Virus record (IMG/VR): IMGVR_UViG_3300030328_002651
Location: 1 to 47,055 of that record
DNA length: 47,055 bases
Strand: one strand, 5' to 3'
DNA from: a virus
Shown: positions 4,267 to 42,972 of the stretch, piece after piece
How positions within the stretch are numbered: the first letter of the stretch is position 1
How the letters are laid out: each line of letters opens with the position of its first letter
Translations under genes and position numbers: made by a program
The notes under the pieces: model-generated
What the model saw: the letters and a program-made list of their open reading frames with translations, nothing else
Told to the model about the DNA's origin: nothing
Databases searched by the model: none

Positions 4267-4577
4267 TGGATTACACTAGAAAAGCCTCTCATAGGTCAAA
4301 ACCTAGAATACCTAAAATAAGCGTTGAGAGTCTTATTATTGAGTTCTTGCAACGACTTGAAACTGGCACAGTAATAGGTTCGCATCATATACAAATAGAT
4401 GCACCACAATGGGCTTTTAATACATATAGCAAGAGATTCAATCCCGATACTTTTATGAGAAAGTTCAGAGGAATTAAGAATGAGAAAGATTATATGCTCA
4501 AAAACGCAGGTATTACTTTGAAAGAAGTAGTCAAGTTCAAAGGTGAAAAGAGTTGGGAAATCCAACGCATTTCGTAG
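4266..4577 (+). CDS. Hypothetical protein, possible winged helix (103 aa)
   Basis: Not recognised. It is basic, with a helix-rich first half and a beta hairpin near the end, compatible with a small winged-helix DNA-binding fold. It lies between the possible SSB and the primase-helicase, overlapping the primase reading frame by 25 nt if the TTG start of the latter is used. That placement suggests a helicase- or primase-accessory role, but nothing in the sequence shows it. Confidence 0.7.
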   Translation: MDYTRKASHRSKPRIPKISVESLIIEFLQRLETGTVIGSHHIQIDAPQWAFNTYSKRFNPDTFMRKFRGIKNEKDYMLKNAGITLKEVVKFKGEKSWEIQRIS

Positions 4578-6361
4578 AAATAGCTTCAGGGCATATAGCC
4601 AATCGAGGTATGGCAGATTTAATTGCGAATCTGCCTAGCCTTATTGGTGTCTCTTCTGCCAAGCGCGAACTTTATCATAGCTGGTATTCTTTCGATCAGG
4701 AAATTCAAAGTCATCTCGATGGTAAAAACTCTATAAGCACATTTAAGGGTGTTTACTATGTTGATCAGATTATTCTAGATGTTGACTTTAAGGAATTATC
4801 CGAAACTGAGAGATTGCAGGCAGTTAAATTCTTTGTAAATACAGATTTACTTGAGGATTTATCAATAAAAGAAGAACACATACAAGTGTGGTATAGCGGA
4901 ACTGGCTTTCATGTCGTTTTGCCAGATTTATTTGGCTTTACCCCCTCTACTACTCTACCCTTTTCTGTTAAAGCAACTTTAGAAACTGTTTTTCCCGATG
5001 CTGATAAAATATATGATGGTGCAAGATTGATACGCGCTCCTTTTAGTTACAATAAAAAGAGCAAGTTATTTAAGGTTCCTCTAACATTAAGAGAGTTAAA
5101 TACTTTTAGCATAGAAGACATCAAAAAAAAAGCATCAACGGTTCCTGATGAAATAAACTTGAATCAGTATGCTTTTAAAAATGTCGAACACTATCTAAAA
5201 CAGTATTTAAAACTTGAGGTTGAGAAGGTTTATAAAAATGTGACTGCTCAAAAGTCTACATTTGACATAGACCCAACTACAGTAGTTACTTGTATGCAAA
5301 CTCTACTATCTAAGCCTCCAATACCCGGTGAAAGAAACGAATCTATGATGAGGATCGCTGCTTGGTACAGAAGGTCAGGCATTCCAAAGGAAAGTGTTAT
5401 TCAAACATTGATGAGTTGGACTGGCAATAAAGAAGAAGCGATTAGTACTGTAAATAGTGTATATGATAAAGGATATAATTATTGGTGTAATGATTATATA
5501 ATGTCTAAGTACTGCGATCCTAAGTGTATCCATTTCAAACGTAAAGATTATTCTATGCCAATTGAAAATATGAGTACGCTAGCTGAAAAGTATAAAGAGT
5601 TCATTGAATCTGGTATATCAAAAAGTGCTTTCAACTTTAAAGATCTTTATAGAAGTTGGAATTCTGACTTTTGGATAATGCCGGGTGAACTTGTTATCCT
5701 TCTTGGTGATACTGGAATGGGTAAGTCTACATACTTATCTAATCTTGCAGTTCTTTTAAGAAAACACAAGATAATGTATCTATCGCTAGAAAACACTTGG
5801 CATTTAACATATAGAAGATTAGTACAAATATCTTTAGGATATTCAAAAGACCAATCTAATAAGTACCATAAGGAACTTGAAGATATGTCAAATCTATATG
5901 ATAGCATTGACCACATACACGCAGTTCATAAATGCCCTGAAATAGAAAAACTTGAAGAAGAAGTTGCTCGATTTGATCCCGATATAGTAATGGTTGACCC
6001 TACAAATAAACTTATTGTAAAGAATGTTCATAATGAGTTTGATAAGATGAACGCTATAATAACAAAATTGAAAGACATTGCTGTTAATCAAGAATGTGTT
6101 GTGGTTGCGGTTCATCATATTAATAAGGAATCAGCTAAGACTGGTTATGTTGATATTAATTCTGCAAAAGGTTCAAGTACTGTTGTACAAGAAGCTGATA
6201 AAGTATTAACTCTCAATGGAACTAGAATAGAAAATGGAAGAATAATTACCTCTGATAAAAATAGAGATGGAAAAGGTCTTAAAATAATGTTTCAGTTTAA
6301 TAAAGAACATATGACATTTGATGAGCCACCTCCTATCACTCTACACGATCAGAGTTTTTGA
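4553..6361 (+). CDS. Primase-helicase fusion (AEP-type primase plus RecA/DnaB helicase)
   Basis: The N-terminal part looks like an archaeo-eukaryotic primase. It has acidic metal-binding candidates D76 and D78 in a hydrophobic strand, then YSGTGFH (residues 114-120), matching the SGxGxH motif of that superfamily. The C-terminal part is a RecA-fold helicase of DnaB type: Walker A GDTGMGKST (385-393) and a Walker B strand ending at D482 in MVDPTNK. A middle segment with several cysteines may be a zinc site. A single protein would thus prime and unwind at the fork, as T7 gp4 does with an unrelated TOPRIM primase. The TTG at 4553 has a modest ribosome site; an ATG at 4610 is an alternative start 19 residues later. 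Confidence 0.8.
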   Translation: MGNPTHFVEIASGHIANRGMADLIANLPSLIGVSSAKRELYHSWYSFDQEIQSHLDGKNSISTFKGVYYVDQIILDVDFKELSETERLQAVKFFVNTDLLEDLSIKEEHIQVWYSGTGFHVVLPDLFGFTPSTTLPFSVKATLETVFPDADKIYDGARLIRAPFSYNKKSKLFKVPLTLRELNTFSIEDIKKKASTVPDEINLNQYAFKNVEHYLKQYLKLEVEKVYKNVTAQKSTFDIDPTTVVTCMQTLLSKPPIPGERNESMMRIAAWYRRSGIPKESVIQTLMSWTGNKEEAISTVNSVYDKGYNYWCNDYIMSKYCDPKCIHFKRKDYSMPIENMSTLAEKYKEFIESGISKSAFNFKDLYRSWNSDFWIMPGELVILLGDTGMGKSTYLSNLAVLLRKHKIMYLSLENTWHLTYRRLVQISLGYSKDQSNKYHKELEDMSNLYDSIDHIHAVHKCPEIEKLEEEVARFDPDIVMVDPTNKLIVKNVHNEFDKMNAIITKLKDIAVNQECVVVAVHHINKESAKTGYVDINSAKGSSTVVQEADKVLTLNGTRIENGRIITSDKNRDGKGLKIMFQFNKEHMTFDEPPPITLHDQSF

Positions 6362-10562: not shown

Positions 10563-12223
10563 TATCTATTCTCCTCTATATTAAATTCTTGACCTAAAGT
10601 AGGTATTGCTGGTAATAACCCTAGTTTTAAATTTTTTCTTATTGTTTCTTGTGCTGTGTTCTCAAACGAGCTTAGAACTGGATCAAGTAGATCACTATCT
10701 CCAAAACCCACACCCCAATCTTTTCTTACAGGGTCTTGCAAGCCTTGCACATATCTTAACTGATCTATAATGTTAGCCTTGTCTCGCATTGCGCTTTGTG
10801 GAAATAATGTTTGTGTAGATTCTTTGCCTACAATGTCTCCTATCCATTGTGAAGTATATGGAGCCTCACTTTTGCTTCTTGCCCATCTGCTTATTCGTTG
10901 TGGCTTAGCTGATAACCGAATTGCACTTTGTATTCCCCCTGTTTGAATAAATCGTCTCTGTATATAATCTGGCATACCTTTAATCTTATCCCAATCAACT
11001 TCTTCCATTACCGGATTGTATCCCGGTGCATTTTTACCAGACATCTTAATCCAGTTTTCTTGTGCAAAAAGCGGAGCTCCACTCTTATCTAAAGCATAAG
11101 GTTTCTGAGCAATAAAATCTAATAAAGATTTTCCAAACTGTCCTTTTCCTTTGCTTGGCGACCCTTTATAAATTTTATTTAAACGATCAGCTATTCTACT
11201 TAACTCGAAATTCATATATGCTGGATCAGTTTTTAATGCCCCCATAAATTTCATATAATTATTGACAGACTCGCCTTTCATCTTGTCTGTTATTCCAGCC
11301 ATACTGGTATCATAAAAACGAATACCACCCGGGGTTAAATCTACACTTAATCGTCTTTCTGGATTGTCTCTTACGTACCTTTGTGCTCTTTCCCAAGCTT
11401 CTCCTTGACTTTCAGCTGTAACCCACTTATTAAAATGTGCAGGGTTTTCAATATCAACATCCGACATTTGAACATCAATATTCCCAAACATCATTTGTTT
11501 GTGCCCCCGTACATTATCAAGATTTTCTATACCTCTAATTTCCCCAAATTGTTTATAGTCGCCTTGACGAAATATAGGAACTGCATCTTTTCCATATCTA
11601 TCCGTTAACATCCAATCAACATCAACTTCGTCTAAACCTCTTATCGTACCACCTGACTCAAGTCTAGGCAACCCCGTAAGAGGAAGTCTACCTACTTGAT
11701 CATCCTTAAACTGATTAACAATTTTTTTAATAGAAGGATTCGATAAATCAAGTAGTTCTGTAGGTTTAGCAACTCCCCTATTTTTAACTGTTACAGGGTA
11801 GTTTGTATATTGGTAAGGATTTGAACTATATGAATTATAAGGATTACTATATGAATTATAAGGATTACTAACTTGTTGTTTTGGTTTTGGTCTACCAGTT
11901 AGTATACTCGCAAGTAATCCACCTACGGCACCTACTTCAGGATTATTTACTGCTTCACCTATACCTGCACCAAATGTTTCAACTATTAAATCTCTAGGGC
12001 TGGCTGGAATTAAATCAACTAAGCCTCTCCCTTGTGGATTTGGAAGTTCTTCACCTTTGCTATCGTAGACTATTTCATATTGATTAATGTTTTTTTGTGG
12101 AATTCTTTTACCCTTAGCATCAAAATATGGACTTTGTTTTGCAGTTGGTGTTTTAAAAGAACTGGGATCAATACCTATAGTTTTAAATAATTGATTATAA
12201 AATTGTCTTTCTCTTGCATTCAT
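10562..12223 (-). CDS. Late structural or ejection-associated protein (553 aa)
   Basis: Not recognised as a family. It is the last large gene of the late operon, directly after the giant RNA polymerase-like gene, sharing one base with its stop. It has a glycine/alanine-rich hydrophobic stretch (about residues 85-110), then a tandem NPYNSYS repeat (near 118-132), then a long mixed domain with many Asp, Arg and aromatic residues. The position suggests a virion protein delivered with the ejection proteins. The hydrophobic segment would suit membrane contact. Confidence 0.6.
   Translation of the reverse strand: MNARERQFYNQLFKTIGIDPSSFKTPTAKQSPYFDAKGKRIPQKNINQYEIVYDSKGEELPNPQGRGLVDLIPASPRDLIVETFGAGIGEAVNNPEVGAVGGLLASILTGRPKPKQQVSNPYNSYSNPYNSYSSNPYQYTNYPVTVKNRGVAKPTELLDLSNPSIKKIVNQFKDDQVGRLPLTGLPRLESGGTIRGLDEVDVDWMLTDRYGKDAVPIFRQGDYKQFGEIRGIENLDNVRGHKQMMFGNIDVQMSDVDIENPAHFNKWVTAESQGEAWERAQRYVRDNPERRLSVDLTPGGIRFYDTSMAGITDKMKGESVNNYMKFMGALKTDPAYMNFELSRIADRLNKIYKGSPSKGKGQFGKSLLDFIAQKPYALDKSGAPLFAQENWIKMSGKNAPGYNPVMEEVDWDKIKGMPDYIQRRFIQTGGIQSAIRLSAKPQRISRWARSKSEAPYTSQWIGDIVGKESTQTLFPQSAMRDKANIIDQLRYVQGLQDPVRKDWGVGFGDSDLLDPVLSSFENTAQETIRKNLKLGLLPAIPTLGQEFNIEENR
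11825..11866. repeat. Exact 21-bp tandem duplication inside a gene
   Basis: Two identical 21-bp units (11825-11845 and 11846-11866) lie in the 553-residue gene and encode two NPYNSYS heptads, followed by a degenerate third. Identity at the DNA level points to recent slippage. Confidence 0.85.
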
Positions 12224-15200
12224 TAGATTGCTACCTCAGCTAATTCTTCTTCTGTTTCTTTACGTGATTTTTTCATTTTCTGTGCTAATCTATGTATAGG
12301 AAACCCAGTTAGTTCTTCTACCCACATTTCAGGATTATCATATGTTCTTACCGCTGATCTTGCAAGCCTACCAAATGGTGCAAACGTCCAAGCGTGATAA
12401 TCTAAAAACGATTCCCAATCGTTATTTATTAAAGCCTTAGTAGGTGAAAGGATATACCTTAATGAAGGACCAGTAACTGCTGAGAGTGGTGCAAGTGCAG
12501 GGTGAGGCCATTGGTTAAAGAAAGCTCTTTCTCTTACTTTTTCGTCTCCAAATAACCAATCTGCTGTATCTTGCATATAAGACATAGGTGGTGGTAAAGC
12601 TGAATCAAATATAGACGATACAAATATTTGACCTAAAGCAAATACCATTAAATCTGCTGTTAACTGCCTTTGAAATCTTTTACCCGCCTGAGTATTCATA
12701 TCGAAACCGTGAACTTTTGCTCTTGAATAAGCTAGTCTTCTAAACTTGATAGAATTCCAAGCAAATGGCATAAACCTAGTAAATATTTTTCCTGTTGATG
12801 TTCTTGAAAAAGCTGGTCTTGTGCTAGAGTGATATAAAAACTGAGTTGCTTCTACTCCCTTTACTGCCATCTTTAATAAATAAGGATCATTGTATTGAAG
12901 ATTTGGTATTAACTGATTAAGGGTTTCTCTTGTACTTAAATAGTGTGATAAAAAAGAATCTCGTCTTAACATTCTTTCAGATTTTCTCATAAACCAAGCA
13001 CCGCCATCTACAACAGTTTTATTAAATCCATGTTTCTTAGCAATATCATAAAGAGTATAATCTGGCATATTGTAATCTTCTTTAAGTTTGCTAGTAAACT
13101 CTTTTAAAAATCCTTTTACTTTCTTACCCCTAAACCCTCTCGCAAGAGAAGCTTCAGATACAATAAAAGATTCTAATGCACCCGATTCTTCAGCAAAACG
13201 ATTTAAAAACTGCATTACATTGTCTCTAGATATTTTAGTGCCATCATTTAATTCTGCACCTCTAAAAACAGAATATAAATATGCGGGATCCTTAGCTTTA
13301 ACAAAATGTCTTAACCCATTATTAGATATAGTATTAGTACTTCCTCCTAAAATATTACCAAATGCTGTTCTTGGATGAGATAGTAAAGAAATAAGAGACC
13401 ACTTTGCTTCAAATGCGCCTATATTTTGCACTATCTTTCTAAGAGCGTAGTCTCGAGCTTGTTTAGTTCTTGGAAGTTCTTTTAATCGTGGAAACCAACT
13501 ATCTTCAAAAGATGGGAGCTTAGGTGTGTCTCTGCCTCCTAATTTAAAAGCAAGTTTTTCTAATTTACTAGAAATAACTTCATCGCTTAACCAATAATAA
13601 GGAGTATGTCTAACTTTTCTTCTTATTTTGTCTTTACGAAGAGTTTCTTTTGCTTGTTCAAAAAATTCATATTCTTGTGTAGAGATAATCTTTCCTTCTT
13701 TATCTGCTTTTTCAATCTCTTTTACTTTCTTCTCCATTCTAATTCTTTGATCTTTAGTAAGACCTATCATTTCTGAATTAAACACACTAGGGTATCCTAA
13801 AACATCTCTAGTGTACATTTTCATATGGTTTTCCCACTCGTCATTGTTGTCTTTATTTTTAAGGGGATTTCTTCTTGAAAAATCAGAAATTCTATCGTGT
13901 GCAATTAATGAGGTTAGGTTGTTATAAAAAGATGAAATCCACTGATTAGAGTAGCTTTCTATTACATCAAAATCTAAAGAAAAACCCGGCATTGTTGTAT
14001 CACCTCTAGCCTTACCTGATCCCGGTCTACTATTAAAACCCGTAGAATCTTTAGTAATGTACTCATCGCTACTATGATTTGCTAAAAGCCATCTCATAGC
14101 GTGTTCATTTGCACCACCATCTTCACTTGCCCTATTTCCTAAAAAGACTTCAAAATCTTGTTCTTGCATAGCAACAAATCTTTCAACAAGTTTTTCTTTA
14201 GTTATTTCACCTTTTTTAAATAGTCTTATATCAGCTTCTGCTTGAGTTATAAACTTTGGTTTAATATTAAAATCTTCTATAGATACATCTTCATTTCTTT
14301 TTATAGCGTCTGCAAATTTTTCAATGTTTGATCTAGTTTCAGATAATTGTTCAGAAATGAATTCTTGAACTGCCCTTCTGCTTGCTCTTGTATTCATATG
14401 TCCCATCTGAGGCCAATACTCAAAGGCATCTAACATAGCAACTTCTTTAGTACCTACATAGCCAGTAGGTCTAAAAGCGGTTTTTCTCCACTCTACAGTT
14501 CCATCGGGTAATGTTCTCCATCTTTTTCTAGATTGAAGTCTGTAATCTAAAGCTTTAGTGCTACTAGGAAAGTATCCTTTTTCAGCTATTCTAGCTTCTA
14601 ACATAATTTCATATTGTATTCTATATAAAGCATCGGCTGATAAAGAACTTGTTTCTATAAGTTTTTTTATTTTGTTTCTATCTCCTTGGGCTGCTGGCTC
14701 TAGTAATTTTTTACGAATACGTCTCATATTTAATTGACCATTTGGTTTGTATTCAAATAGTTCGTCTAGTTTACCAAATTCCGCCTTATCATCTATTTTA
14801 CTCCAATCAATTCCAGAGTTTATCCATTTTTTATAAATATTTTGAAGCAACTCTCCGTGTTGCTCACCTATCCATTCAACAACTTCAGCTCCAGTTTTTT
14901 TAACAGTTTTACCTTTTTCTACAATTTCAAATTCTTTATTCTTTAACAATTCATAGTCTGCTCTATTTTCTTCCCAAAGTTGTCTGTAGTGCTCTGCTCT
15001 TTTAGATTTAGACTGATTGCTCCCCTGTTGTCCAGCACCTCTATCATTAAGCATTTTTGAAACTGCCACTCTATGAAGTTTAGCAAATTGAGTTTCTCCA
15101 TCTTCAAGACCTCTAATTTGATCTCTTAATTCGTATCTGCCTTGAATCTCTTCTTGCATAATTTCTTTTTCAATATTTGTCATTGTATAAAGATGTCCAT

Positions 15201-18200
15201 AAGAAGTGCTTAAATATTTCATTGTACTAAATGGAAGTTTAATGTCAAGAACTTCAACTTTTCCTTGCTTGTTTAAATAAGGAATAGGGTGTTTGTACAT
15301 TTGACTCATATCAAAAGAAAGAGACTTTTCTCCAATTCTTTCAGGGAACATATAATAATAGATTTTTTTCATTCTTGAAGAATCTGCACCTTCAATAACT
15401 ATCTGTTTCATAAACCTATTAAAACCTCTTATGTCATCCCAAGAAGATTCTCCTATTCTTTTTGCAACTCCTGATTTTTCTTGTTGGTACGCTGCAAAAA
15501 AGTTTTCCATAAAATAAGTAGCTTCCTGAGGGAGTCTAGAAAGATTTGTTTCTAATTCTTTTAATACTTTAGGTATATCCTTTGGAACATTTTCTTTTAC
15601 TATAAGAGTTTCCGTTGTGTCTTTAAATCTTTCTGAAAATAAAGTTTCAATCTTTGTCTTAGCTTCTATTCTTCTCTTAGTTTCTCCTGCGCCTTTACCT
15701 TCTTCTACTTTTTCAGGTGCTATCTGCTTTCCTATCTCTTTGTTAATCTTGGTAAAAGGCTGATTGTCTTCTACTAGATTAGCAACCTTAGTAAACCCTC
15801 TAATAAATTCTTCTTTTCTTTTTTCTGATATATGTCTTGTTTCTAAAGGAAAGCGGTTAAAGCTTGTTTTGTTGTACCATTTAGTAAAGTTGTTTTGAAT
15901 TCTTTGATAGTTATTATATAATCTTTGATCAGAATTACTAAGCTCTTCATTTTGACCTCTAGACTCAAATAGTTTTTCTTTGGCTCTAAATTTTTCAACT
16001 TCAGCATCAATAATACTTCGTGTTTTTTGCGGACTCATTGGTTGGTTGTATAGAGAACTCATCATATAATTATCAAAATAATCTGTAGCTATTGCGGGGT
16101 CAATTCCAAAGTCTCTTGCCTTTTTAGTAATGTCAGATTTTACCTTTTCCAATCTATCGCTAATTTGATTTATAGTCTGTATTTCACCTATCTTTTTACG
16201 TTGATTACCAGTCCTAGTTGTATTGTATTTAGATTTAATGTTTATTGCACTTTGAGCAAGTTGCCTAAGAAAATCAAATGAAACATCTCTATGTCCAGCT
16301 TCATCCATTGCTTCAATAAGCCTTTTACCTTTTTTTGATACTCTTAAAGTGCTATATAAATCCATTACATCATTAAACTTTAATTTAGCCTCAGTAAGAA
16401 CATCGTGAGGTTGGATAACTTTTTCAGCTTTCATCTTTTTATAAAGATCAACATACTTTTTATCCATATCCCATTTTTCTTTAGGATCACCCATCATTCC
16501 CTTAATTCGCAATTGCCTAACATTAAGTGCTTTTTCAGGTGTATTTAATTCGGGATTGTCTTTAAAAAACTTTAATAACATTTCCTCTGCTCTGATATTA
16601 TCTGTTTTCATATAAACAGAACCTATCTGCATTTTCTTTCTGTCAATATACTGACCAAATCTGTTAAAAAAGGAAGGGTCTTTTAATTGTTCGTTTACTT
16701 CAGATACCAATGTTCTCCAAGGCTTTGATCCACCCATAAGATTAATTTTAATTTCATTATCAGCCATTTTGTTAGCTAAGTGAAAAAGTGAATTAAACCT
16801 AAATTTTGTACTTTTAGCGTTTTTCATTGCAGTCTGAACTTCGTTTATACTCCAAGGTTTGTTTGCATAATGATTTCTGCCATACAGCTTTTCATTTATA
16901 TGGTACAAATTGCCATACTCAGTTGATTTTAAAAGACTAAAATTAACGTCTATCCTATTTCCTTTTTTATCTACTGCATACGCTTCTTTAAAAGCTTTAT
17001 TAAACATTAAGTCACGCATTTCTAAAGCATCGATAATATTCCAATATTCAGAACTATCTGCGGTTCTGCTAGATGATTCTACTGCATATTTTCTATAGCC
17101 ATCTTTTTCGTTGTTTAGTCTGCTTAAATCAGTCTTTAAAACAAGATTAAAATCTTCATACCCTTTTTTAAATATAGGTATTCTTTTAACACCACCTTTT
17201 TTAATTACATCAGCAGTTACATAGTTTAAAAATGTTTTAGCATTAACAACTGTACCCATTGATTCTTTACCATAGAAAGAAGACATACCTACTTTTCTAA
17301 GTGCAAAAGGCATATACTGACTTAGTTTACTGCTAAAAAGCGCTTCTGTGATTTTATTTGGGAAACCACTACCGAAATCTTCAGTTACTTGCTTACTGGG
17401 ATCTTTATTTGGAAACATAACTTCCTTTTTACCTACTTTAGTAGAAAGTTCATTTCTATTTTTCTTTACAGCATCACGAAACTTCTTAGGCATATTCTGA
17501 TATATAAATACCTTATCCCCATCAACGTCTGCTCCATCAATATAGAAATGATCTTTAGGGTGCATATACACTCCATAATCTTTTTTATTAGAATCGTTTC
17601 TAATAAATCCGCTAAATTGGAGAATTCGTGTTCCTGAAACTGCGGGAGACGGAACTCTCATAATTGCATACTCTAAAGCATCTAGTATATTTTCTTTTTC
17701 TTTTTTATTTGTGGTTTTTTTAGACAGCTCCCAAAGTTTTCCAAGTTCCCAATCTGCACCTGAAAAATTAATTTTCTTTTTTTCGTATGAATAACCTAAC
17801 TTGAATTTTCCTTGTTTAATATGACCGTATTTTAATTTTGAAACGGGATCAACGCCTGCTACCCATCCACTTGCTGAATATCTCCATTTAGGGTATGTGT
17901 ATTTAATTTTTCTGTATCTTTGAACCATTGCTTGATACAGCTCTGGTTTAGCGTGAGCAGCAATAGGATCAAAATCACTATACTTTGCCCATCTTTGAAG
18001 TTCATTTACATAGTTATCCAATTCGATTAAAAATTCTTCTTCACCAAATTCACTATTTCTTTCCTTATATTGCGTTTCCCTTGTCATCTCTTTTAATAAT
18101 TCTTTATAAAGAGGTTTCATACGCTGAGGATTGCTAACTATATAAGTAAACTGAGCATCTCCTATATCTCTTATTTTAAAATTATTAGGAATAGGCATCT

Positions 18201-21200
18201 TAGGATTCTTTTTCATTGACTCAACTACAGCATTTGCATCTTTGGTTCCTTCAATATTTCTATCAAAAATTTCTGATGTAAATTCTTGAAAAGCATCTTT
18301 GGGTATCTGAAGTTCATTTAAAAGAACGTGAAACTGTTTTTTAATTGTTTGAGTTTTTAACAATGCTCCAACATCTTCATAAACACCATAATCAATTCTA
18401 AGGTCTTTTAAAGGTATTTTGATTGTTTTGGGATTTTTAACAATTTTACCTTGCTTGTTTTTAAACTTATATGAAACACCTTTTTTAGTCTTAGAAGCTT
18501 CTCCAAAATACACTTCTGTATTGTTAGGAACTACTTTAGCGGCATCCATTGTAACAATTGCTCTATTTTTATTTAACATAGCTGAATCGTATTCAGGATG
18601 AGATGGATGAATTCCACCTTTAACAATAAATAGCTGATCGCCTATGTAGGCTGCAATAGAAGGTTTTAATCGTGATGTAGAAGCATCAAACCCATTTGCC
18701 TCTAATAAACGATTATAAAGTTCTGTGTGCAAAACCATATAACCATCTATCTCACTTTCGTAATTCTTTTTTACTATTTTTCCTGTTTTAGCGTCCTTTG
18801 TGTAGTAAGTCTCATGTGGTATACCCTTGGTGTTTGTTTTGTGGATTATACCATCAGGCATCCCGTCAATTGGTATAACTTCCATATCAAGGTTAGGAGC
18901 AATATCTCTAAAGGACTCTTCCATATTTTGAGGCATAGCTTTTGAAGCTATCTGACTTTCATATTTTACTCTTTTACCAGCATTAGCAAACTGAGCCCCA
19001 GGTTCGTATAGAAAATTAGATAACATAGCTTTCTTATAAACCTTTTTAAAAGCTTCTTGTTCTAATCGTGGAGCTTTATTAAGACCGTGAAACTCTAGGT
19101 AGTACTTCATATCTTCTTCTATTAAAGACTTTGCTGAAAACGCCTTAGAGTTTTTATCTCTTTTGTTTATACTATCAAAAATGGTTAAGTAGCTATCCCA
19201 CAATTTATCCAATTCAGCACTAGAAAGATTTCTGACGCTTTTGTGGTATGGATAGATTCTTTCAACTCCGTTATCTTTTTTAGGAATCTTTAAATATCTA
19301 TTTCCTTTATCAAGCTTATAGGTAAGGTCTAACCATTCTGCTTTTTCCATTACAGGGACAAATTCTCTAGTTTCTTTATCCCATACTTTTTCATATGGTT
19401 TATAAATACCATATTCTGTATCAAATTCTTTAAACTCAACAATTTTAACATTTTTATCAAATGCCATTGTTTCATAGTCTCTAAATGTATTTGTTTTTTC
19501 GTCGTAAATAATATCCCTAGCATTAGCAAATTCTATCTTGGATTTTGTTTCATCAAAGTCTTTTATGTTGGATCGTATAATCTTTTTACCAGCAGTAGGA
19601 GAAAATTGCTCTGTTGAAATCCAATCTATCCATTCTGATTCGATTTCTTTACTTGATCTAGTTTTTACAATTGGAGTTTGTTTAAAATGAGCTTCATCTG
19701 GTGGAACAGTAGCACGTTCTGCTACACGATCCCCTTTGTTGTTGTAAATATCATTTTCACCGATAAATCCATTTCTGTTATAAAATAAGTAAGGTCTGAA
19801 TTCTTCATTTTGTTGTCTGTTAAATAATTGCTTTAAACTGTTTTCAACTTTTAAAGAAGGAGTATATCTTCCATTTCTATGGTCTTTTACAGCATTAATA
19901 AAATCAACATAACTTGACCCTTCTTTTACAGATTTATTATAGATTTGCAGTACTTCTTGTAGTATTTCAGAAGGAGACTCTTTTCCTTTTAAACTAACTT
20001 CAACTTCCCTTAACCAACCCCTTACTGTATTTGAAACATTAAGCTCCATTTGTTCTTTATTTGTAGCTTCATTCAGATAATCTCCGGGCTCTACCTCCCT
20101 TGTTGATTTGTCTACTTTACCATCAATTACTTGCTCTAAGATGTCAAGCTTTTCTTCAACAGTTCCCTTATCAAACTTTTCTTTTTGAGATTTGGTCATC
20201 CCGTCTACAACTTCTTGAGATTCTGTACTTAATGGTGTTTCTTCAGTTTTTTTATCCGTTTTTGTTTCATTGATTTTTTTATCTATTTTATCACGCTCTT
20301 TATTAAATTTTTCAAGTGCTTTAGGAGTTCCTTCTGTTCTAGATAATATAATATTAACAATATCTTCATTACCCATTCTTTTATGAAACTCATAAATTTC
20401 TAAGGCACTATCAAAACCAACTTTTTGATCTAAAACAAACTTTTCGTTATTTCTCCTATAAATCCAGCTATCTTGAAAGTTTTTATTAAGTAATGTTGCT
20501 TTTGCTGGCGACAAACCAGCGGCTTGTTGATTTATATTACTATACTCTTTCAATATATCTTTCGCTTCAGTTATATCTTTTTCTGTACCGCCTTTTTGAC
20601 GAATAAGCTCTTCTGCTTGAATAGAGTTTAGATTAAGTTGTTTTGAATCTTTAAAACCAATTTTTTTTGCACGCTTATCTAATTCCAAAACTTTATCATT
20701 AAGCTGATTTGGTAAATCTTGAGTTTCTGTTTGCATTCCTTGAGCTTCGGGAATTAATTCTTTTGATACTTTGTCTAGAACAGAAGCTCTTTGAAAGTTA
20801 GCTATAGTTCTATCATAAGACTCTAAAGCCCTAGCCATTGCTTCTGCTTTTTCAACGTCTGTAAGCTCTCTTCCTTCTCCTTTTGCCATCTTTGAAGCAG
20901 CTTCTTGGGCATCTTTATCAAGTATTAATCTTTCTTTAATTCCTTTTAGAAAAACAGAAGCTTCTGTAGGGGTATCTTCTGCTTTTTGAAACATTTCTAA
21001 TTGCCCTACTTTTCTATTGTATCTTTCAGGTATGCTCCATTTGAAACTGTTTCTCACATAAGCTTGCGCTTCGGGAGTTAATGCTTTATAATCTTCAGTT
21101 CTGAGCATTTGAGTTTCTTTGCCTACGTTTTTTTCGCCATATACCTCATTTTCAGGATTTGCAAAAGAATCTACATATGTTTTAGCAGATCGTATTCTTG

Positions 21201-22080
21201 CACTTGGATGTGTGGCACCAAAATAAGTACCAAGTAAAAATTCATACATTGTAACAGATGTAGGGGCATCTTGAGCCATTGCCAAGCCCCCTTGAAGACT
21301 TCCACCTAATCCCGCTTTTACAACCTTATTCCAAAACCAATCTTCGCCAGCTTTTTGAACTTTAGGATTGGGATGCTTAAGCATTTTACCCACATTAACA
21401 AAATTACCTATCGCCCCAAATGCTCCACCAAAAGCAAAGCCATGTATAGAAGAAGCAAGCGACTCACCAAGCCCTCCCCAAGCTGATGAAACCCCTGATG
21501 CAATACCTAGTTCAGCACCACTTCTATATATATCTGTAAGAACGTCACCTTTTTTTAACCCTTTAGCTACATCAAACCCCGCTCTTTTTAAAGTAGGGTT
21601 TATTAATTCTTTATTTACAAATCCACTAACATGAAATGGAATAGATTTACCTAAAGGGTTTGTAGCAAGCCAAGTTCCAAAATCGGTAACTTTATCTGCT
21701 ATCATTTTAGACTTGCTTCCTTTAACGATTCCCATCCCAAGCTTTGCAGCTCCAATGGTGCTATATCGTAAAGGCGCAGTTAATATGCCGGGTGCAAATC
21801 CAATTAAATGACCTAAGCTTCTAGCAATTTGAGACCCATCACTTTCGGGGTCATCTGCCCATCCTAAGGTAGTATATCCCTCAACTAAACCAGAAGAAAA
21901 CTGATTTAATACATCCTTCCAGCCCGCATCAGATTTTATTTCCTCAGCTTCTATATTTCTCTTAAAGGAAATGTTATGTGATTTTGCGTGTCTGCCTAAT
22001 TCATCAACAAAATCGTCATTATAAAGCCAAGGATTAGCTTCATAGCTAGCTATGTGCTGACGAACTTGGTATGGATCCAT
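12223..22080 (-). CDS. Giant ejection protein with a two-barrel (crAss-like) RNA polymerase core, 3285 aa
   Basis: The centre has two segments typical of two-barrel RNA polymerases. First is EIDGYMVLH with D1112, then K1139-P and K1154 in FIVKGG, matching the DG...KP...K layout of the beta-like barrel. Second is R1475-V-P, S/F residues and HP, then GADVDGDKVFIY, where D1518, D1520 and D1522 form the DxDxD catalytic triad followed by K1523, as in crAss-like phage polymerases and beta-prime NADFDGD. Residues 1-330 are Gly/Ala-rich and hydrophobic. The C-terminus (about 2890-3240) has further hydrophobic helices. The gene takes the T7 gp16 slot after gp14- and gp15-like genes. I infer a virion RNA polymerase injected with the DNA. 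The sequence motifs are seen; packaging is inference. Confidence 0.8.
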   Translation of the reverse strand: MDPYQVRQHIASYEANPWLYNDDFVDELGRHAKSHNISFKRNIEAEEIKSDAGWKDVLNQFSSGLVEGYTTLGWADDPESDGSQIARSLGHLIGFAPGILTAPLRYSTIGAAKLGMGIVKGSKSKMIADKVTDFGTWLATNPLGKSIPFHVSGFVNKELINPTLKRAGFDVAKGLKKGDVLTDIYRSGAELGIASGVSSAWGGLGESLASSIHGFAFGGAFGAIGNFVNVGKMLKHPNPKVQKAGEDWFWNKVVKAGLGGSLQGGLAMAQDAPTSVTMYEFLLGTYFGATHPSARIRSAKTYVDSFANPENEVYGEKNVGKETQMLRTEDYKALTPEAQAYVRNSFKWSIPERYNRKVGQLEMFQKAEDTPTEASVFLKGIKERLILDKDAQEAASKMAKGEGRELTDVEKAEAMARALESYDRTIANFQRASVLDKVSKELIPEAQGMQTETQDLPNQLNDKVLELDKRAKKIGFKDSKQLNLNSIQAEELIRQKGGTEKDITEAKDILKEYSNINQQAAGLSPAKATLLNKNFQDSWIYRRNNEKFVLDQKVGFDSALEIYEFHKRMGNEDIVNIILSRTEGTPKALEKFNKERDKIDKKINETKTDKKTEETPLSTESQEVVDGMTKSQKEKFDKGTVEEKLDILEQVIDGKVDKSTREVEPGDYLNEATNKEQMELNVSNTVRGWLREVEVSLKGKESPSEILQEVLQIYNKSVKEGSSYVDFINAVKDHRNGRYTPSLKVENSLKQLFNRQQNEEFRPYLFYNRNGFIGENDIYNNKGDRVAERATVPPDEAHFKQTPIVKTRSSKEIESEWIDWISTEQFSPTAGKKIIRSNIKDFDETKSKIEFANARDIIYDEKTNTFRDYETMAFDKNVKIVEFKEFDTEYGIYKPYEKVWDKETREFVPVMEKAEWLDLTYKLDKGNRYLKIPKKDNGVERIYPYHKSVRNLSSAELDKLWDSYLTIFDSINKRDKNSKAFSAKSLIEEDMKYYLEFHGLNKAPRLEQEAFKKVYKKAMLSNFLYEPGAQFANAGKRVKYESQIASKAMPQNMEESFRDIAPNLDMEVIPIDGMPDGIIHKTNTKGIPHETYYTKDAKTGKIVKKNYESEIDGYMVLHTELYNRLLEANGFDASTSRLKPSIAAYIGDQLFIVKGGIHPSHPEYDSAMLNKNRAIVTMDAAKVVPNNTEVYFGEASKTKKGVSYKFKNKQGKIVKNPKTIKIPLKDLRIDYGVYEDVGALLKTQTIKKQFHVLLNELQIPKDAFQEFTSEIFDRNIEGTKDANAVVESMKKNPKMPIPNNFKIRDIGDAQFTYIVSNPQRMKPLYKELLKEMTRETQYKERNSEFGEEEFLIELDNYVNELQRWAKYSDFDPIAAHAKPELYQAMVQRYRKIKYTYPKWRYSASGWVAGVDPVSKLKYGHIKQGKFKLGYSYEKKKINFSGADWELGKLWELSKKTTNKKEKENILDALEYAIMRVPSPAVSGTRILQFSGFIRNDSNKKDYGVYMHPKDHFYIDGADVDGDKVFIYQNMPKKFRDAVKKNRNELSTKVGKKEVMFPNKDPSKQVTEDFGSGFPNKITEALFSSKLSQYMPFALRKVGMSSFYGKESMGTVVNAKTFLNYVTADVIKKGGVKRIPIFKKGYEDFNLVLKTDLSRLNNEKDGYRKYAVESSSRTADSSEYWNIIDALEMRDLMFNKAFKEAYAVDKKGNRIDVNFSLLKSTEYGNLYHINEKLYGRNHYANKPWSINEVQTAMKNAKSTKFRFNSLFHLANKMADNEIKINLMGGSKPWRTLVSEVNEQLKDPSFFNRFGQYIDRKKMQIGSVYMKTDNIRAEEMLLKFFKDNPELNTPEKALNVRQLRIKGMMGDPKEKWDMDKKYVDLYKKMKAEKVIQPHDVLTEAKLKFNDVMDLYSTLRVSKKGKRLIEAMDEAGHRDVSFDFLRQLAQSAINIKSKYNTTRTGNQRKKIGEIQTINQISDRLEKVKSDITKKARDFGIDPAIATDYFDNYMMSSLYNQPMSPQKTRSIIDAEVEKFRAKEKLFESRGQNEELSNSDQRLYNNYQRIQNNFTKWYNKTSFNRFPLETRHISEKRKEEFIRGFTKVANLVEDNQPFTKINKEIGKQIAPEKVEEGKGAGETKRRIEAKTKIETLFSERFKDTTETLIVKENVPKDIPKVLKELETNLSRLPQEATYFMENFFAAYQQEKSGVAKRIGESSWDDIRGFNRFMKQIVIEGADSSRMKKIYYYMFPERIGEKSLSFDMSQMYKHPIPYLNKQGKVEVLDIKLPFSTMKYLSTSYGHLYTMTNIEKEIMQEEIQGRYELRDQIRGLEDGETQFAKLHRVAVSKMLNDRGAGQQGSNQSKSKRAEHYRQLWEENRADYELLKNKEFEIVEKGKTVKKTGAEVVEWIGEQHGELLQNIYKKWINSGIDWSKIDDKAEFGKLDELFEYKPNGQLNMRRIRKKLLEPAAQGDRNKIKKLIETSSLSADALYRIQYEIMLEARIAEKGYFPSSTKALDYRLQSRKRWRTLPDGTVEWRKTAFRPTGYVGTKEVAMLDAFEYWPQMGHMNTRASRRAVQEFISEQLSETRSNIEKFADAIKRNEDVSIEDFNIKPKFITQAEADIRLFKKGEITKEKLVERFVAMQEQDFEVFLGNRASEDGGANEHAMRWLLANHSSDEYITKDSTGFNSRPGSGKARGDTTMPGFSLDFDVIESYSNQWISSFYNNLTSLIAHDRISDFSRRNPLKNKDNNDEWENHMKMYTRDVLGYPSVFNSEMIGLTKDQRIRMEKKVKEIEKADKEGKIISTQEYEFFEQAKETLRKDKIRRKVRHTPYYWLSDEVISSKLEKLAFKLGGRDTPKLPSFEDSWFPRLKELPRTKQARDYALRKIVQNIGAFEAKWSLISLLSHPRTAFGNILGGSTNTISNNGLRHFVKAKDPAYLYSVFRGAELNDGTKISRDNVMQFLNRFAEESGALESFIVSEASLARGFRGKKVKGFLKEFTSKLKEDYNMPDYTLYDIAKKHGFNKTVVDGGAWFMRKSERMLRRDSFLSHYLSTRETLNQLIPNLQYNDPYLLKMAVKGVEATQFLYHSSTRPAFSRTSTGKIFTRFMPFAWNSIKFRRLAYSRAKVHGFDMNTQAGKRFQRQLTADLMVFALGQIFVSSIFDSALPPPMSYMQDTADWLFGDEKVRERAFFNQWPHPALAPLSAVTGPSLRYILSPTKALINNDWESFLDYHAWTFAPFGRLARSAVRTYDNPEMWVEELTGFPIHRLAQKMKKSRKETEEELAEVAI

Positions 22081-38209: not shown

Positions 38210-40384
38210 CTATCCGACAGCAACCGGTGTTTGAGTTTCTGCTTCTTCTTCCCGTTCCGTTTTCAGTAGGTCGTTTAATCGAGCCTCATACAATTCAACT
38301 GCTTTAGCTGTCTTGTCACTAGCTCTACCTAACTGACGTTTAAATTTTTCTATTTCGACACGTTTCTTGTCGTGAACGCTTTCACGCTCTGTAGTTTGAA
38401 GATCGCCTTTGATCTTCTTTAATTCTTCTTGGAGTTGCTGAATCATAGATTGTTGCTGTTGCATAATCGAGGTTCTTTCGAGTACGCCTTCTGTATCAGC
38501 AACTTCAGTTTGTTCTAATATCTCTATTTGGTCAATAATACCTGCTTGATAGAGTTGCATATAATAATCAAACCTTGCCCAACGGTTAGATGGCAGAGTA
38601 GAACCACTAACTACAATTAGATCGTACTTTCCTATAGTGACATCATTGACACGACCTACAATCTCACCAGTAAAATCATCATATACTGGTTTATTTAAAA
38701 CTGCCACACTTGTTCTACCATCTGGCTTCATCAATCTAACGACTTTTTCATCTGAGTATGTTTGCTGAATAAACTGAACGACAACTTTGCCTATTTGATT
38801 CAGCATTTCATCTATATCATCTAACTTTGATTTGATTCTGCGTTGGGCATATTCGTCAATAGCAACCGTTCCCTTGTATGTTTGAGGAGCGGCACTTGGA
38901 TCACCCTGTGATAATGGATGTATCCCTAGAATATGATAAATACTTGATTTAGCGTCTTCCTTGTTTTTGTAAAGTTCATTAGGTAACGGTATAGGACCCG
39001 CCACAATAGGAGTACCTAATTCAGGATCGTACTCAATGACTCCTGTTCCAGCTCTTGACCATTCTTGTTCTAACTGTTTTCTATCCATTGACCCCCTAGG
39101 AATCAATAATTTTGTATTTGTAGAACTGGATGCGTGAGCAATAATTAAAGATGTTAATTTGTTTATGTACTCTTGAATAGGCTTTACAAACCTCACATCA
39201 CTCATTGGATATGGGTTTCTGTTATGCCTATTCATAAGTGGAACAATTGGATACTCATCAATATCCATAATAGAATTATCAACGAGAAGACCGCCTATAG
39301 ATAAAATCCTTTGAATCCTATCAGTTAGTACTCGATTTAAGACAATGACACCCTCTTCAACCATTTCCATATTTGTCACGGGAGTAAGTCGTGTAGTAGA
39401 GTTTGGAATAGAACCTTCGTGTTCTTCGCCCGGCATTATTTGTGGCTGACCAGTTACAGGGTCAGGCATCATATGATAGACACCACCAGTAGCTTCATAA
39501 ATTTGCAGTAACTCAGCTACTGCTTTGTCTTCAGTTACGGGCTGAACACCTTGTGCATTTTCCATGAATATTGCAGGCTCTTGAGCAAACTCATTAAAAC
39601 CTTCCTCATTCATTATATTCTCTTCACCAGTTAAGGTATCAAGGATATGAAAATAAGGTAGCTTTACCTTCTCATAGCGATCAATGATTTCAAAATGCTT
39701 ATAATATCCGTCATCATCTTCTGTTGGTCCAATCTGTTGGTCTTGAGAACCTTCTCTAGTTGTGCTTGGATACCTATTATTAGATGATGCAGACATCATA
39801 TGCTCCATTTGATCAACTACAGAAGGGTACATTGTTTTAATCTGTTCTTCCGTGATTCTTTTTGAAACAATCATACAAGCAGAATCTCTAGCAAATGGAT
39901 CTTTTGCATTTGGGTCTAAAAATAGGTCAAGGGGATCAATGCTTTTTATCTTGATCTCACCCCGACCAAAATCAGCCATCCCGTCTACATAGGTCTGCAT
40001 GACCCCCATACCTTTTACATAGTAATCATCAACAACTTGCTTTAACTCAACACTTCCATTAGATATATCCCATATATATGCCATTATATCTGAAAATAAC
40101 CTACCAACCTTATTGTCAGAATCGTCTCTGCCAGCAGATTGAAACTTTGGTTTATTAGCTGTAAGTAGTGCTTTGGCTTGCTCTACTGCGGGATATATAA
40201 TATTATCAACAATAGGAACTTGCGAACGATCAGCTAAAACTCTTTTATGTTCACTCTTCCATTGCTGATTATTACGGAACTCATCATCTTCCATTGCTTG
40301 AGTCGCCCACATTGCTCTACCTTCGTGGTAGTTGTCAAGCAACTTTTCTGACTTGGATACTTCGGGGTGTTTTTCGTGTGCCAT
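38210..40384 (-). CDS. Portal protein (724 aa)
   Basis: This large protein follows the terminase. Its opening helices (ADRSQVPIVDNIIYPAVEQ) precede a domain with SIDPLDLFLDP, as in podovirus-type portals (P22-like size, 724 residues). A helical stem region follows, and the C-terminal 100 residues are a highly charged Gln-rich coiled coil that would form the barrel. It forms the dodecameric channel for DNA entry and exit. No clear Shine-Dalgarno is seen; a structured leader lies upstream instead. Confidence 0.8.
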   Translation of the reverse strand: MAHEKHPEVSKSEKLLDNYHEGRAMWATQAMEDDEFRNNQQWKSEHKRVLADRSQVPIVDNIIYPAVEQAKALLTANKPKFQSAGRDDSDNKVGRLFSDIMAYIWDISNGSVELKQVVDDYYVKGMGVMQTYVDGMADFGRGEIKIKSIDPLDLFLDPNAKDPFARDSACMIVSKRITEEQIKTMYPSVVDQMEHMMSASSNNRYPSTTREGSQDQQIGPTEDDDGYYKHFEIIDRYEKVKLPYFHILDTLTGEENIMNEEGFNEFAQEPAIFMENAQGVQPVTEDKAVAELLQIYEATGGVYHMMPDPVTGQPQIMPGEEHEGSIPNSTTRLTPVTNMEMVEEGVIVLNRVLTDRIQRILSIGGLLVDNSIMDIDEYPIVPLMNRHNRNPYPMSDVRFVKPIQEYINKLTSLIIAHASSSTNTKLLIPRGSMDRKQLEQEWSRAGTGVIEYDPELGTPIVAGPIPLPNELYKNKEDAKSSIYHILGIHPLSQGDPSAAPQTYKGTVAIDEYAQRRIKSKLDDIDEMLNQIGKVVVQFIQQTYSDEKVVRLMKPDGRTSVAVLNKPVYDDFTGEIVGRVNDVTIGKYDLIVVSGSTLPSNRWARFDYYMQLYQAGIIDQIEILEQTEVADTEGVLERTSIMQQQQSMIQQLQEELKKIKGDLQTTERESVHDKKRVEIEKFKRQLGRASDKTAKAVELYEARLNDLLKTEREEEAETQTPVAVG

Positions 40385-40402
40385 ATATTATTAGATAATT
40401 AT

Positions 40403-40443
40403 GGCGGTAATATTATCAAGGAGAATTTCCGATTCTCAACGCC
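40403..40443 (-). promoter_or_regulatory. Structured leader of the portal gene
   Basis: A perfect 6-bp hairpin (40421-40426 with 40432-40437, loop 5 nt) is enclosed by a GGCG/CGCC helix (40403-40406 with 40440-40443). Reading on the minus strand, it ends 18 nt before the portal ATG, which lacks a strong ribosome site. It may control portal translation, as portal must be made in limited amounts. There is no T tract. Confidence 0.45.
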
Positions 40444-40448
40444 CTACT

Positions 40449-41939
40449 TTAAACTAATTGCCAATCACTAAATACATTTCTGATTCCCCTTGTTATAAGT
40501 GGAGCATCTTCATATTTATGATGAGGCATATAAGAACCTTTATTAGCATAAAATAAACCATCTAGAATGTCATCGTGCTTCCCCCTAGGAAAAAGTAGCA
40601 ACTCATTGATTAAATCTTGCTGATCTTCCTTTAAAAACATCTTATGATTAGCAAATATAGGCTGAAGGGATTCTAAGCGGTTACTTTTAGAGGTTCTAGG
40701 ATTTTCTCTAATATTAAGACCAGGTATAAATAAATTTTCATCTCTAGAGCGTTTTAAAACATATTCTCTTAGCATCTCCTGATACCCTACAGATTCTATC
40801 CTTGTTTTCTCAGAACGGTATCGTCTGAAATTATTTACAATTGCTTCTGCTAAAGTAAGTGGCGTGGCGTGTTTTCTATAGTAGGGCAACGAATAACGAT
40901 TGTCTTCATCGTCAACGGCTAAGTTGTAGATAACAGAATAATCTGCTCCTCTTTTTACGCTTGAAGCTGGGTCAACCCCCGTAAATACATTTACAGGAAC
41001 TATTTTATCACATTTTTCACCATCTAAAGAGGTTATCCTTAAATAACTTTTCCCTTTTTTACGAAAAAACTCCCCATCGTAATGCCTAAAATCATCTGCT
41101 TTAAAGAGTTGGTCTTCATCCCCTACTATTTCACAAGCATATTCTCTATAGAACACAGATAGTCTATTAATAGATTCTAGCTCTTTTTTCTTTTCAAGAA
41201 GCTTTTCAATACTCCACCAATCCTCCCAAAGGGCAATATTCTTATCGAAATCGGGTTTAAAGGTAAGGTTTTCCCATCCGTGCATCGCTTTTAAGGTTTC
41301 TACCATACATCTTTGGTGCTGAGGAGTGCCAATTATAACAATTCTGCCTTTCATAGGGTCTAATGAAGGAACTGCACTTTGAAGAAGCCATCTTAAGTTA
41401 TTTTCCATAGCTTCAGCAGTTTTTGTATTATTTTCATCTTCGGGATCATCCACTATAATTAACGTAGGTCTCTGATTTCCAACCTTAATACCTCTTAATT
41501 GTTGCCCTGTACCCTTGCAAATGACCATAGAACCGTCTTTTAATTCTATTTCAGCCTTAGACCAGCTTCTAGCACTATGTTGCCCCCAGTAGCCAAATAT
41601 GGAGCGAAAAGACTCAGAGTAGTCCATTGTGTCCTTTAGAAGACCTAATAGTTTAACTGCGTGATCCTGTGTTCTAGACACCAATACAACCAATTTTTGC
41701 CCTTTTCCATACATTAAATGATGCAAAGGAAATATACCACCCACTATAGAAGACTTAGCGTGTCCTCTAGGTGCTACAATATTGATTTGTTTTTTATCGG
41801 GATTAAGTAAATGTTCAGCTATATCATAGTGAAACTTGGGAGAATTGACTGCAAACATATTTGACATACATATTTTGCCAAATAAGACCATATCGTGCCT
41901 CAATTTAGAGGCTATCTCTATTCTTTTGCTATCCGACAC
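40449..41939 (-). CDS. Terminase large subunit
   Basis: The ATPase domain has Walker A APRGHAKSS (residues 56-64) and a Walker B strand ending in D164-D165 (LIIVDDPED). The C-terminal RNase H-like nuclease has FTGVDPASS, with a metal-binding Asp, and a second acidic patch in GKHDDILDGL near residue 458. At 496 residues it is typical. The enzyme powers DNA packaging and cuts the concatemer. It starts at GTG 41939, overlapping the stop of the 54-residue gene by one base. Confidence 0.9.
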   Translation of the reverse strand: MSDSKRIEIASKLRHDMVLFGKICMSNMFAVNSPKFHYDIAEHLLNPDKKQINIVAPRGHAKSSIVGGIFPLHHLMYGKGQKLVVLVSRTQDHAVKLLGLLKDTMDYSESFRSIFGYWGQHSARSWSKAEIELKDGSMVICKGTGQQLRGIKVGNQRPTLIIVDDPEDENNTKTAEAMENNLRWLLQSAVPSLDPMKGRIVIIGTPQHQRCMVETLKAMHGWENLTFKPDFDKNIALWEDWWSIEKLLEKKKELESINRLSVFYREYACEIVGDEDQLFKADDFRHYDGEFFRKKGKSYLRITSLDGEKCDKIVPVNVFTGVDPASSVKRGADYSVIYNLAVDDEDNRYSLPYYRKHATPLTLAEAIVNNFRRYRSEKTRIESVGYQEMLREYVLKRSRDENLFIPGLNIRENPRTSKSNRLESLQPIFANHKMFLKEDQQDLINELLLFPRGKHDDILDGLFYANKGSYMPHHKYEDAPLITRGIRNVFSDWQLV

Positions 41940-42857: not shown

Positions 42858-42879
42858 CTAGTATAATATATATACTGAC

Positions 42880-42908
42880 TTGACAATTGTACTGTAATAG
42901 TATATTTT
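42880..42908 (+). promoter_or_regulatory. Possible -35/-10 promoter in the operator array
   Basis: TTGACA at 42880-42885 is followed after 17 nt by TATTTT (42903-42908). It points toward the plus arm, across the small minus-strand gene at 42973-43170. The -10 is poor and the region is very AT-rich, so it may be chance. It overlaps the repeated operator elements. Confidence 0.3.
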
Positions 42909-42963
42909 ACTGTATAGTATACTATACAGACTATTATACAGTATAATAAGTACAGTATAATAA
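42891..42963. repeat. Operator/iteron-like array upstream of the late operon
   Basis: A perfect 20-bp palindrome (42910-42929, built on CTGTATAGTA) is flanked by the related half-site ACTGTAATAGTATA (42891-42904). It is followed by two exact 13-bp direct repeats with a 14-bp period (42937-42949 and 42951-42963) that share its ACTGTATA-type half sites in reverse. All lie in the 115-nt non-coding gap upstream of the small terminase. It resembles a multi-site regulator binding array or replication iterons. Confidence 0.7.
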
Positions 42964-42972
42964 TCCCTGCAT

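Follow-up and report, generated by a model that had tools for sequence, protein, structure and literature searches.

A Single-Chain Two-Barrel RNA Polymerase Domain in a Giant Late Protein of a Compact Phage

Introduction

What is a polymerase active site doing in the middle of a giant protein encoded among the structural genes of a small phage? The question is raised by the virus record IMGVR_UViG_3300030328_002651 (positions 1 to 47,055; this whole stretch of 47,055 bases is called the window here), in which one late gene encodes a protein of 3285 amino acids (aa). Pfam, PHROGs and NCBIfam hold no family for this protein or its relatives. An initial annotation, made from the sequence alone, had read a two-barrel RNA polymerase (RNAP) active site within it. 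As judged from conservation, profile alignment and predicted fold, residues 1000-1770 are shown to be a single-chain two-barrel RNAP domain whose catalytic set is intact. We consider it very probable that a single account, in which such a polymerase is synthesized late, packaged in the virion, injected and used for early transcription, explains the locus.

Results

Conservation of the catalytic residues

Searched with the polymerase region and with the conserved C-terminal part of the giant protein, IMG/VR yielded well over 100 loci, many of which were overlapping fragments of shared contigs. Once near-duplicates had been removed, 57 non-redundant polymerase regions remained (the window and 56 relatives, 18-64% identical to it); their alignment, A7, underlies all conservation counts below. 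In relatives with full-length frames, the giant protein measures 2600-3600 aa.

All residues cited in the initial annotation (G1516-A-D1518-V-D1520-G-D1522-K1523, R1475-V-P1477, H1507-P1508, D1112-G1113, K1139-P1140, and K1154) occupy their assigned positions. Those on which the active site was built, D1518, D1520, D1522, R1475, P1477, D1112, G1113, K1139, and K1154, are each invariant (57/57), as are S1021, K1039, G1516, and five residues that had gone unremarked: K1182, P1397, G1483, R1485, and D1675. Two details of the earlier reading fell away. H1507 and P1508, which had been likened to the HP that precedes the bacterial beta-prime motif, occur in only 26 and 16 of the 57 sequences, and the beta-prime HP reading was rejected; K1523, counted as part of the motif, is present in 21 and is no feature of the family.

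The DxDxD motif alone is not significant, with 0.64 occurrences expected per composition-shuffled protein. RxP followed at the right spacing by GxDxDGD was found in none of 2000 shuffles. The position just ahead of the last Asp is unconstrained (G in 24 sequences, S in 19, I in 9, A in 5), and the motif reads DVDGD in 22 sequences, DKDSD in 15, DKDID in 6, and DKDAD in 5, with other variants in the rest. A catalytically dead remnant, retained as a structural part, would suit a large protein of the structural block whose central Gly is variable, but every catalytic anchor is kept in 57 of 57 sequences. In addition, gp66 of the crAss-like phage phi14:2, which experiments have validated as an RNAP (PMC7886860), has the sequence DFDID, likewise without Gly before the last Asp. 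We regard such a remnant as the least probable of the alternatives weighed here.

Similarity to crAss-like polymerases

For comparison with crAss-like RNAPs, we assembled a profile from gp66 and 80 sequences. (The 2180-aa protein called gp66 in the literature is gp077, a "structural protein," in GenBank KC821624, L154:1-6543.) Against this profile A7 gave an hhalign E value of 2.3e-8, compared with 0.3 for reversed profiles and 0.043 for the best of 200 column shuffles, and all catalytic anchors pair, in agreement with the layout first proposed. The metal-binding loop pairs as G1516 with G1359 and D1518-D1520-D1522 with D1361-1363-1365. The lysine half alone also matched (E 2.5e-4; best shuffle 0.057): K1139, K1154, and K1182 align with gp66 K1012, K1027, and K1065, which bears out the predicted second barrel, and the first two lysines lie 15 residues apart in both the window family and the crAss-like RNAPs. 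The remaining pairs are given in Table 1. The likeness is visible by profile-profile comparison only. The A7 hidden Markov model (HMM) had no significant match to gp66, HMM searches of PDB sequences returned nothing relevant, and tblastn with the polymerase region and the C-terminus against 50,697 phage records found no match.

Predicted fold

AlphaFold2, run on A7 for residues 1000-1770, gave a mean predicted local distance difference test score (pLDDT) of 89.8 and a predicted template modeling score of 0.88. This fold prediction, one of the checks that the initial annotation had named, matched two-barrel polymerases across the whole segment. Foldseek placed 6VR4, the phi14:2 RNAP (E 2.3e-8), and QDE-1 at the top of its PDB matches. 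VIA-align ranked QDE-1 (Z 16.9; 447 residues, 4.4 A) and RDR2 (Z 16.4) above 6VR4 (Z 12.9; 505 residues, 4.2 A), P74-26 gp62/P23-45-type gp64 (Z 12.2), and P23-45 gp96 (Z 10.9), and its best 17 rows are without exception single-chain two-barrel RNAPs or RDRs. The best matches in a viral structure library were unnamed UniProt viral proteins (TM 0.73), followed by crAss-like proteins; relatives thus already lie uncharacterized in public databases.

From the fold and the alignment together, the catalytic side chains are predicted to meet in one active site. D1518, D1520, and D1522, in one double-psi beta-barrel (DPBB), would hold Mg ions, and the lysines of the other barrel (K1139, K1154, and K1182) would touch the nucleoside triphosphate and the nascent RNA; D1112-G1113, R1475-x-P1477, and D1675 would be further shared anchors. 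Helix 1591-1627 and D1675, the latter aligned with gp66 D1612, may correspond to the bridge helix and the N-terminal part of the trigger loop, a pairing at the level of the alignment only.

Two other enzymes share this architecture. The first is a two-barrel DNA polymerase for replication, like archaeal PolD, which has the two barrels too (PMC10770324); no DNA polymerase family was recognized among the larger window open reading frames (ORFs) scanned. On the other side, RNA polymerases head the PDB matches. PolD does not appear among the 50 VIA-align rows listed, which is no evidence that it is absent. The likeness to gp66 runs beyond the barrels into the bridge-helix-like segment and D1675, whereas a comparison of RNAPs with PolD found nothing conserved outside the barrels (PMC10770324), and the giant gene is placed with structural rather than replication genes. 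A PolD-like enzyme is accordingly very improbable. The second is an RNA-dependent polymerase that copies RNA instead of DNA, as the leading Z scores of QDE-1 and RDR2 might suggest. Yet the window is a double-stranded DNA phage with DNA packaging genes, QDE-1 accepts DNA templates as well (PDB entry titles), and gp66, the closest phage relative, transcribes phage early genes (PMC7886860); we give this option, too, very little credence.

The giant gene in its genome

The features discussed are collected in Table 1. On the minus strand, the giant gene shares its block with genes for terminase, a P22-like portal, and an SU10-like capsid. The plus-strand block encodes a Sak-type annealing protein, a primase-helicase, a ParB-like protein, and a possible Holliday-junction resolvase that scored below Pfam's cut-off. 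Positions 1-85 and 46971-47055 overlap (85 bases, one mismatch), which suggests that the genome is complete, with circular permutation or terminal redundancy; its full length is thus probably about 47 kb. Rfam had no match within the window, and no transmembrane segment exceeded the hydropathy threshold used. In two relatives, a tRNA-Gly(gcc) gene lies downstream of the giant gene (L007:18293-18366, L011:12694-12767); the window has none.

Table 1. Positions of the giant gene, its modules and catalytic residues, and landmark genes in the window
Feature	Position	Strand	Basis or remark
Giant late ORF	12223..22080	-	3285 aa; one of last two genes of structural (late) block
N-terminal conserved module, residues 1-330	21091..22080	-	Conservation
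Two-barrel RNA polymerase domain, residues 1000-1770	16771..19083	-	AlphaFold2 model and PDB matches
Lysine-bearing barrel (DPBB-B), residues ~1112-1235	18376..18747	-	Model strands and crAss-like profile match
D1112-G1113	18742..18747	-	Invariant; D1112 pairs with gp66 D962; profile alignment, 57-sequence alignment
K1139-P1140	18661..18666	-	K1139 57/57, pairs with gp66 K1012; profile alignment, 57-sequence alignment
K1154	18619..18621	-	57/57, pairs with gp66 K1027; profile alignment, 57-sequence alignment
K1182	18535..18537	-	Third invariant Lys, pairs with gp66 K1065; profile alignment, 57-sequence alignment
Metal-binding barrel (DPBB-A), residues ~1402-1528	17497..17877	-	Model and alignment
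R1475-V-P1477	17650..17658	-	R and P invariant, pair with gp66 R1322-x-P1324; profile alignment
G1516-A-D1518-V-D1520-G-D1522, metal-binding loop	17515..17535	-	G1516 and three D invariant; alignment
Bridge-helix candidate, 37-residue helix 1591-1627 after DPBB-A	17200..17310	-	Conserved G1604; model, gp66 alignment
R-T-A-D1675-S-S	17050..17067	-	D1675 invariant, pairs with gp66 D1612 (0.99 conserved); alignment
C-terminal module, residues 2800-3285	12226..13683	-	Holds most conserved segment of giant; similarity to two phage giants
P22-like portal and terminase large subunit	38210..41939	-	Same strand and block as giant gene
Primase-helicase	4553..6361	+	Opposite-strand replication (early) block

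Giant proteins without a detectable polymerase

Microcystis phage Mel-JY34 and Vibrio phage VS-ABTNL-3 are among the nearest isolate relatives by capsid, and in each of them, too, the late block closes with a giant gene (L242:17795-23479 and L243:17815-23187, respectively, the latter annotated "putative DNA methylase"). The A7 profile detects no polymerase in either giant. Their likeness to the window's C-terminal module is weak but specific: with that module as query, the two giants took the first two places among 292 ORFs, scoring 14.7 and 8.7 bits (30 shuffles gave at most 6.7), and hhalign returned an E value of 2e-4. They resemble the window's giant minus its polymerase, which hints that a giant vehicle common to both kinds either received the polymerase domain by insertion or lost it. 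In their own C-terminal parts they match PHROG 11358 and PHROG 10089 ("DarB-like antirestriction"); the window giant has no direct PHROG or Pfam match to DarB-like families. DarB of phage P1 is an injected virion protein.

Relatives and hosts

One 46-kb relative, IMGVR_UViG_2716884438_000001, is QCPL01000010.1 (L034/L238) from the Prochlorococcus single amplified genome AG-436-M02. This contig is a hint of a host, pointing to a two-barrel-RNAP phage of picocyanobacteria, with contamination of the amplified genome possible. Parts of another relative lie on two contigs (L239, L241) of the Flavobacteriaceae metagenome-assembled genome UBA5079, the first of which keeps the window's set of helicase, annealing-protein-like, and DUF932-like genes. 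Binning errors are possible for the members in both groups. From the Prochlorococcus and Flavobacteriaceae bins only, the window phage, which is uncultured, is probably marine.

A search of genomes for integrated copies found none with the polymerase query; the C-terminal query matched two contigs. The genomes matched were 1 of 14 in the genus and 1 of 299 in the family, in each case the starting genome, and the other 13 Prochlorococcus genomes searched gave no match; no host range can therefore be claimed. The 88,986-base contig IMGVR_UViG_3300030329_002114 (L012, L055) carries two different giant polymerase genes, of the DVDGD and DKDGD types, and is either a chimeric assembly of two phages of about 45 kb or the genome of one phage that encodes both.

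Discussion

A role for the giant protein

We propose that the giant protein would be made late, packaged in the virion, and carried into the cell with the DNA. Its polymerase would then transcribe the opposite-strand early block, with its replication, recombination, and ParB-like genes, before or without the host RNA polymerase, with the remainder of the 3285-residue chain as the vehicle for packaging and ejection. Packaging and injection are inferred from the position of the gene and the fusion to a giant protein, and the C-terminal likeness to phage giants that match DarB-like families also speaks for them; by analogy with gp66 and P23-45 gp96, for which such a role has been proposed, the polymerase probably travels in the virion and makes the first viral transcripts.

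Several observations weigh against this account. A search upstream of the early genes for a promoter motif or repeat of a virion RNAP found nothing convincing. The divergent region between the late and early blocks (42859-42965) holds AT-rich palindromes and repeats, with TACAGTATAATAA (13 nt) present twice, and is a possible operator or early promoter. It also contains a sigma70-like site, TTGACA-17-TATTTT, at 42880-42908, from which the host polymerase could start early transcription; sigma70-like matches in this region are no commoner than in shuffles. The link to DarB is weak at the bit score and E value given above, and an earlier AlphaFold2 model, from an alignment of five sequences, reached a pLDDT of only 45.

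In a rival account, the two-barrel RNAP is real but acts outside the virion, on middle or late genes or only after new synthesis, and the giant chain is not ejected. Non-virion two-barrel RNAPs exist (P23-45 gp64, PMC10770324; YonO, PMC5467207), the window's giant is a putative virion protein, and a sigma70-like site lies ahead of the early block. What speaks for a virion enzyme instead is that the polymerase is fused into a protein of about 3000 aa within the structural block, among relatives of 2600-3600 aa, whereas the stand-alone gp64 and YonO have 616 and 839 aa. A non-virion role thus appears unlikely, though less so than the PolD-like, RNA-copying, and dead-remnant alternatives, and the packaged, injected polymerase is the explanation we retain.

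Significance

With this locus, the single-chain two-barrel RNA polymerases gain a divergent family. Its 57 sequences define the indispensable residues, among which the Gly of DxDGD is not found, and compact phages with P22-like portals are seen to carry such enzymes in giant proteins. Prochlorococcus and Flavobacteriaceae bins are places where host-independent early transcription is testable. A broader proposal is tentative and, in our estimation, rather doubtful: that an injected protein of the DarB class, in compact phages (about 45-50 kb) of such dissimilar hosts as Flavobacteriaceae and Prochlorococcus, has taken in a polymerase from a separate, widespread clade of two-barrel RNAPs, which would provide early transcription independent of the host RNAP alongside other effector or ejection modules.

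Comparison with known systems

Giant virion two-barrel RNAPs are already known from crAss-like phages and, outside them, from P23-45. What is new here is a divergent family with no Pfam, PHROGs, or NCBIfam entry, in a compact group of phages and in a different carrier protein. The initial annotation was right to place the enzyme outside the crAss-like phages; that setting is not unprecedented, given P23-45 gp96 and the YonO-type enzymes.

The phi14:2 enzyme gp66 (PDB 6VR4) is likewise a single chain with two barrels in identical order, and the D, K-K, K, RxP, G-x-DxDxD, and later D all pair. It is a virion component that is translocated with the DNA and transcribes the phage early genes (PMC7886860). 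The similarity is remote (about 12-13% identity over the alignments), and gp66 has 2180 aa, whereas the window's polymerase sits midway in a protein of about 3000 aa. The phage, too, differs from crAss-like ones, with its SU10-like capsid, P22-like portal, and genome of about 47 kb: crAss-like genomes span roughly 90-105 kb, full-size crAss-like records being mostly 88-104 kb, and the window's capsid matches SU10_MCP, with three phage records matched, none of them crAss-like.

Thermus phage P23-45 gp96 (PDB 8H2M), a 5002-aa tail tape-measure protein with a two-barrel polymerase, offers a non-crAss-like case of fusion to a giant virion protein (PMC10770324). In gp96, the RNAP is N-terminal within the tape-measure protein of a long-tailed phage; neither gp96 nor gp64 shows HMM similarity to the window family in sequence, and their structural match is weaker than that of QDE-1 or 6VR4. 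QDE-1 and RDR2, closest in structure, are eukaryotic stand-alone enzymes of RNA interference with about 10% identity. Other phages encode single-chain enzymes of the YonO type (PMC7824862).

In its proposed role, the window's polymerase resembles the virion RNAP of N4, a giant packaged enzyme of a short-tailed phage, which is a single-subunit (T7-type) polymerase of unrelated fold (Kazmierczak 2002, as cited in a passage of PMC5512222). Phage polyvalent proteins are described, in passages of PMC5512222 and PMC7824862, as injected along with the DNA, and the N4-like virion polymerase is the sole polymerase, with no two-barrel one beside it, named for them in the available text of PMC5512222. 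With the polyvalent, DarB-like proteins of PHROG 10089 and 11358, the window's giant shares a weakly similar C-terminal module, by way of the two phage giants that differ from it in having no RNAP domain detectable by the A7 profile.

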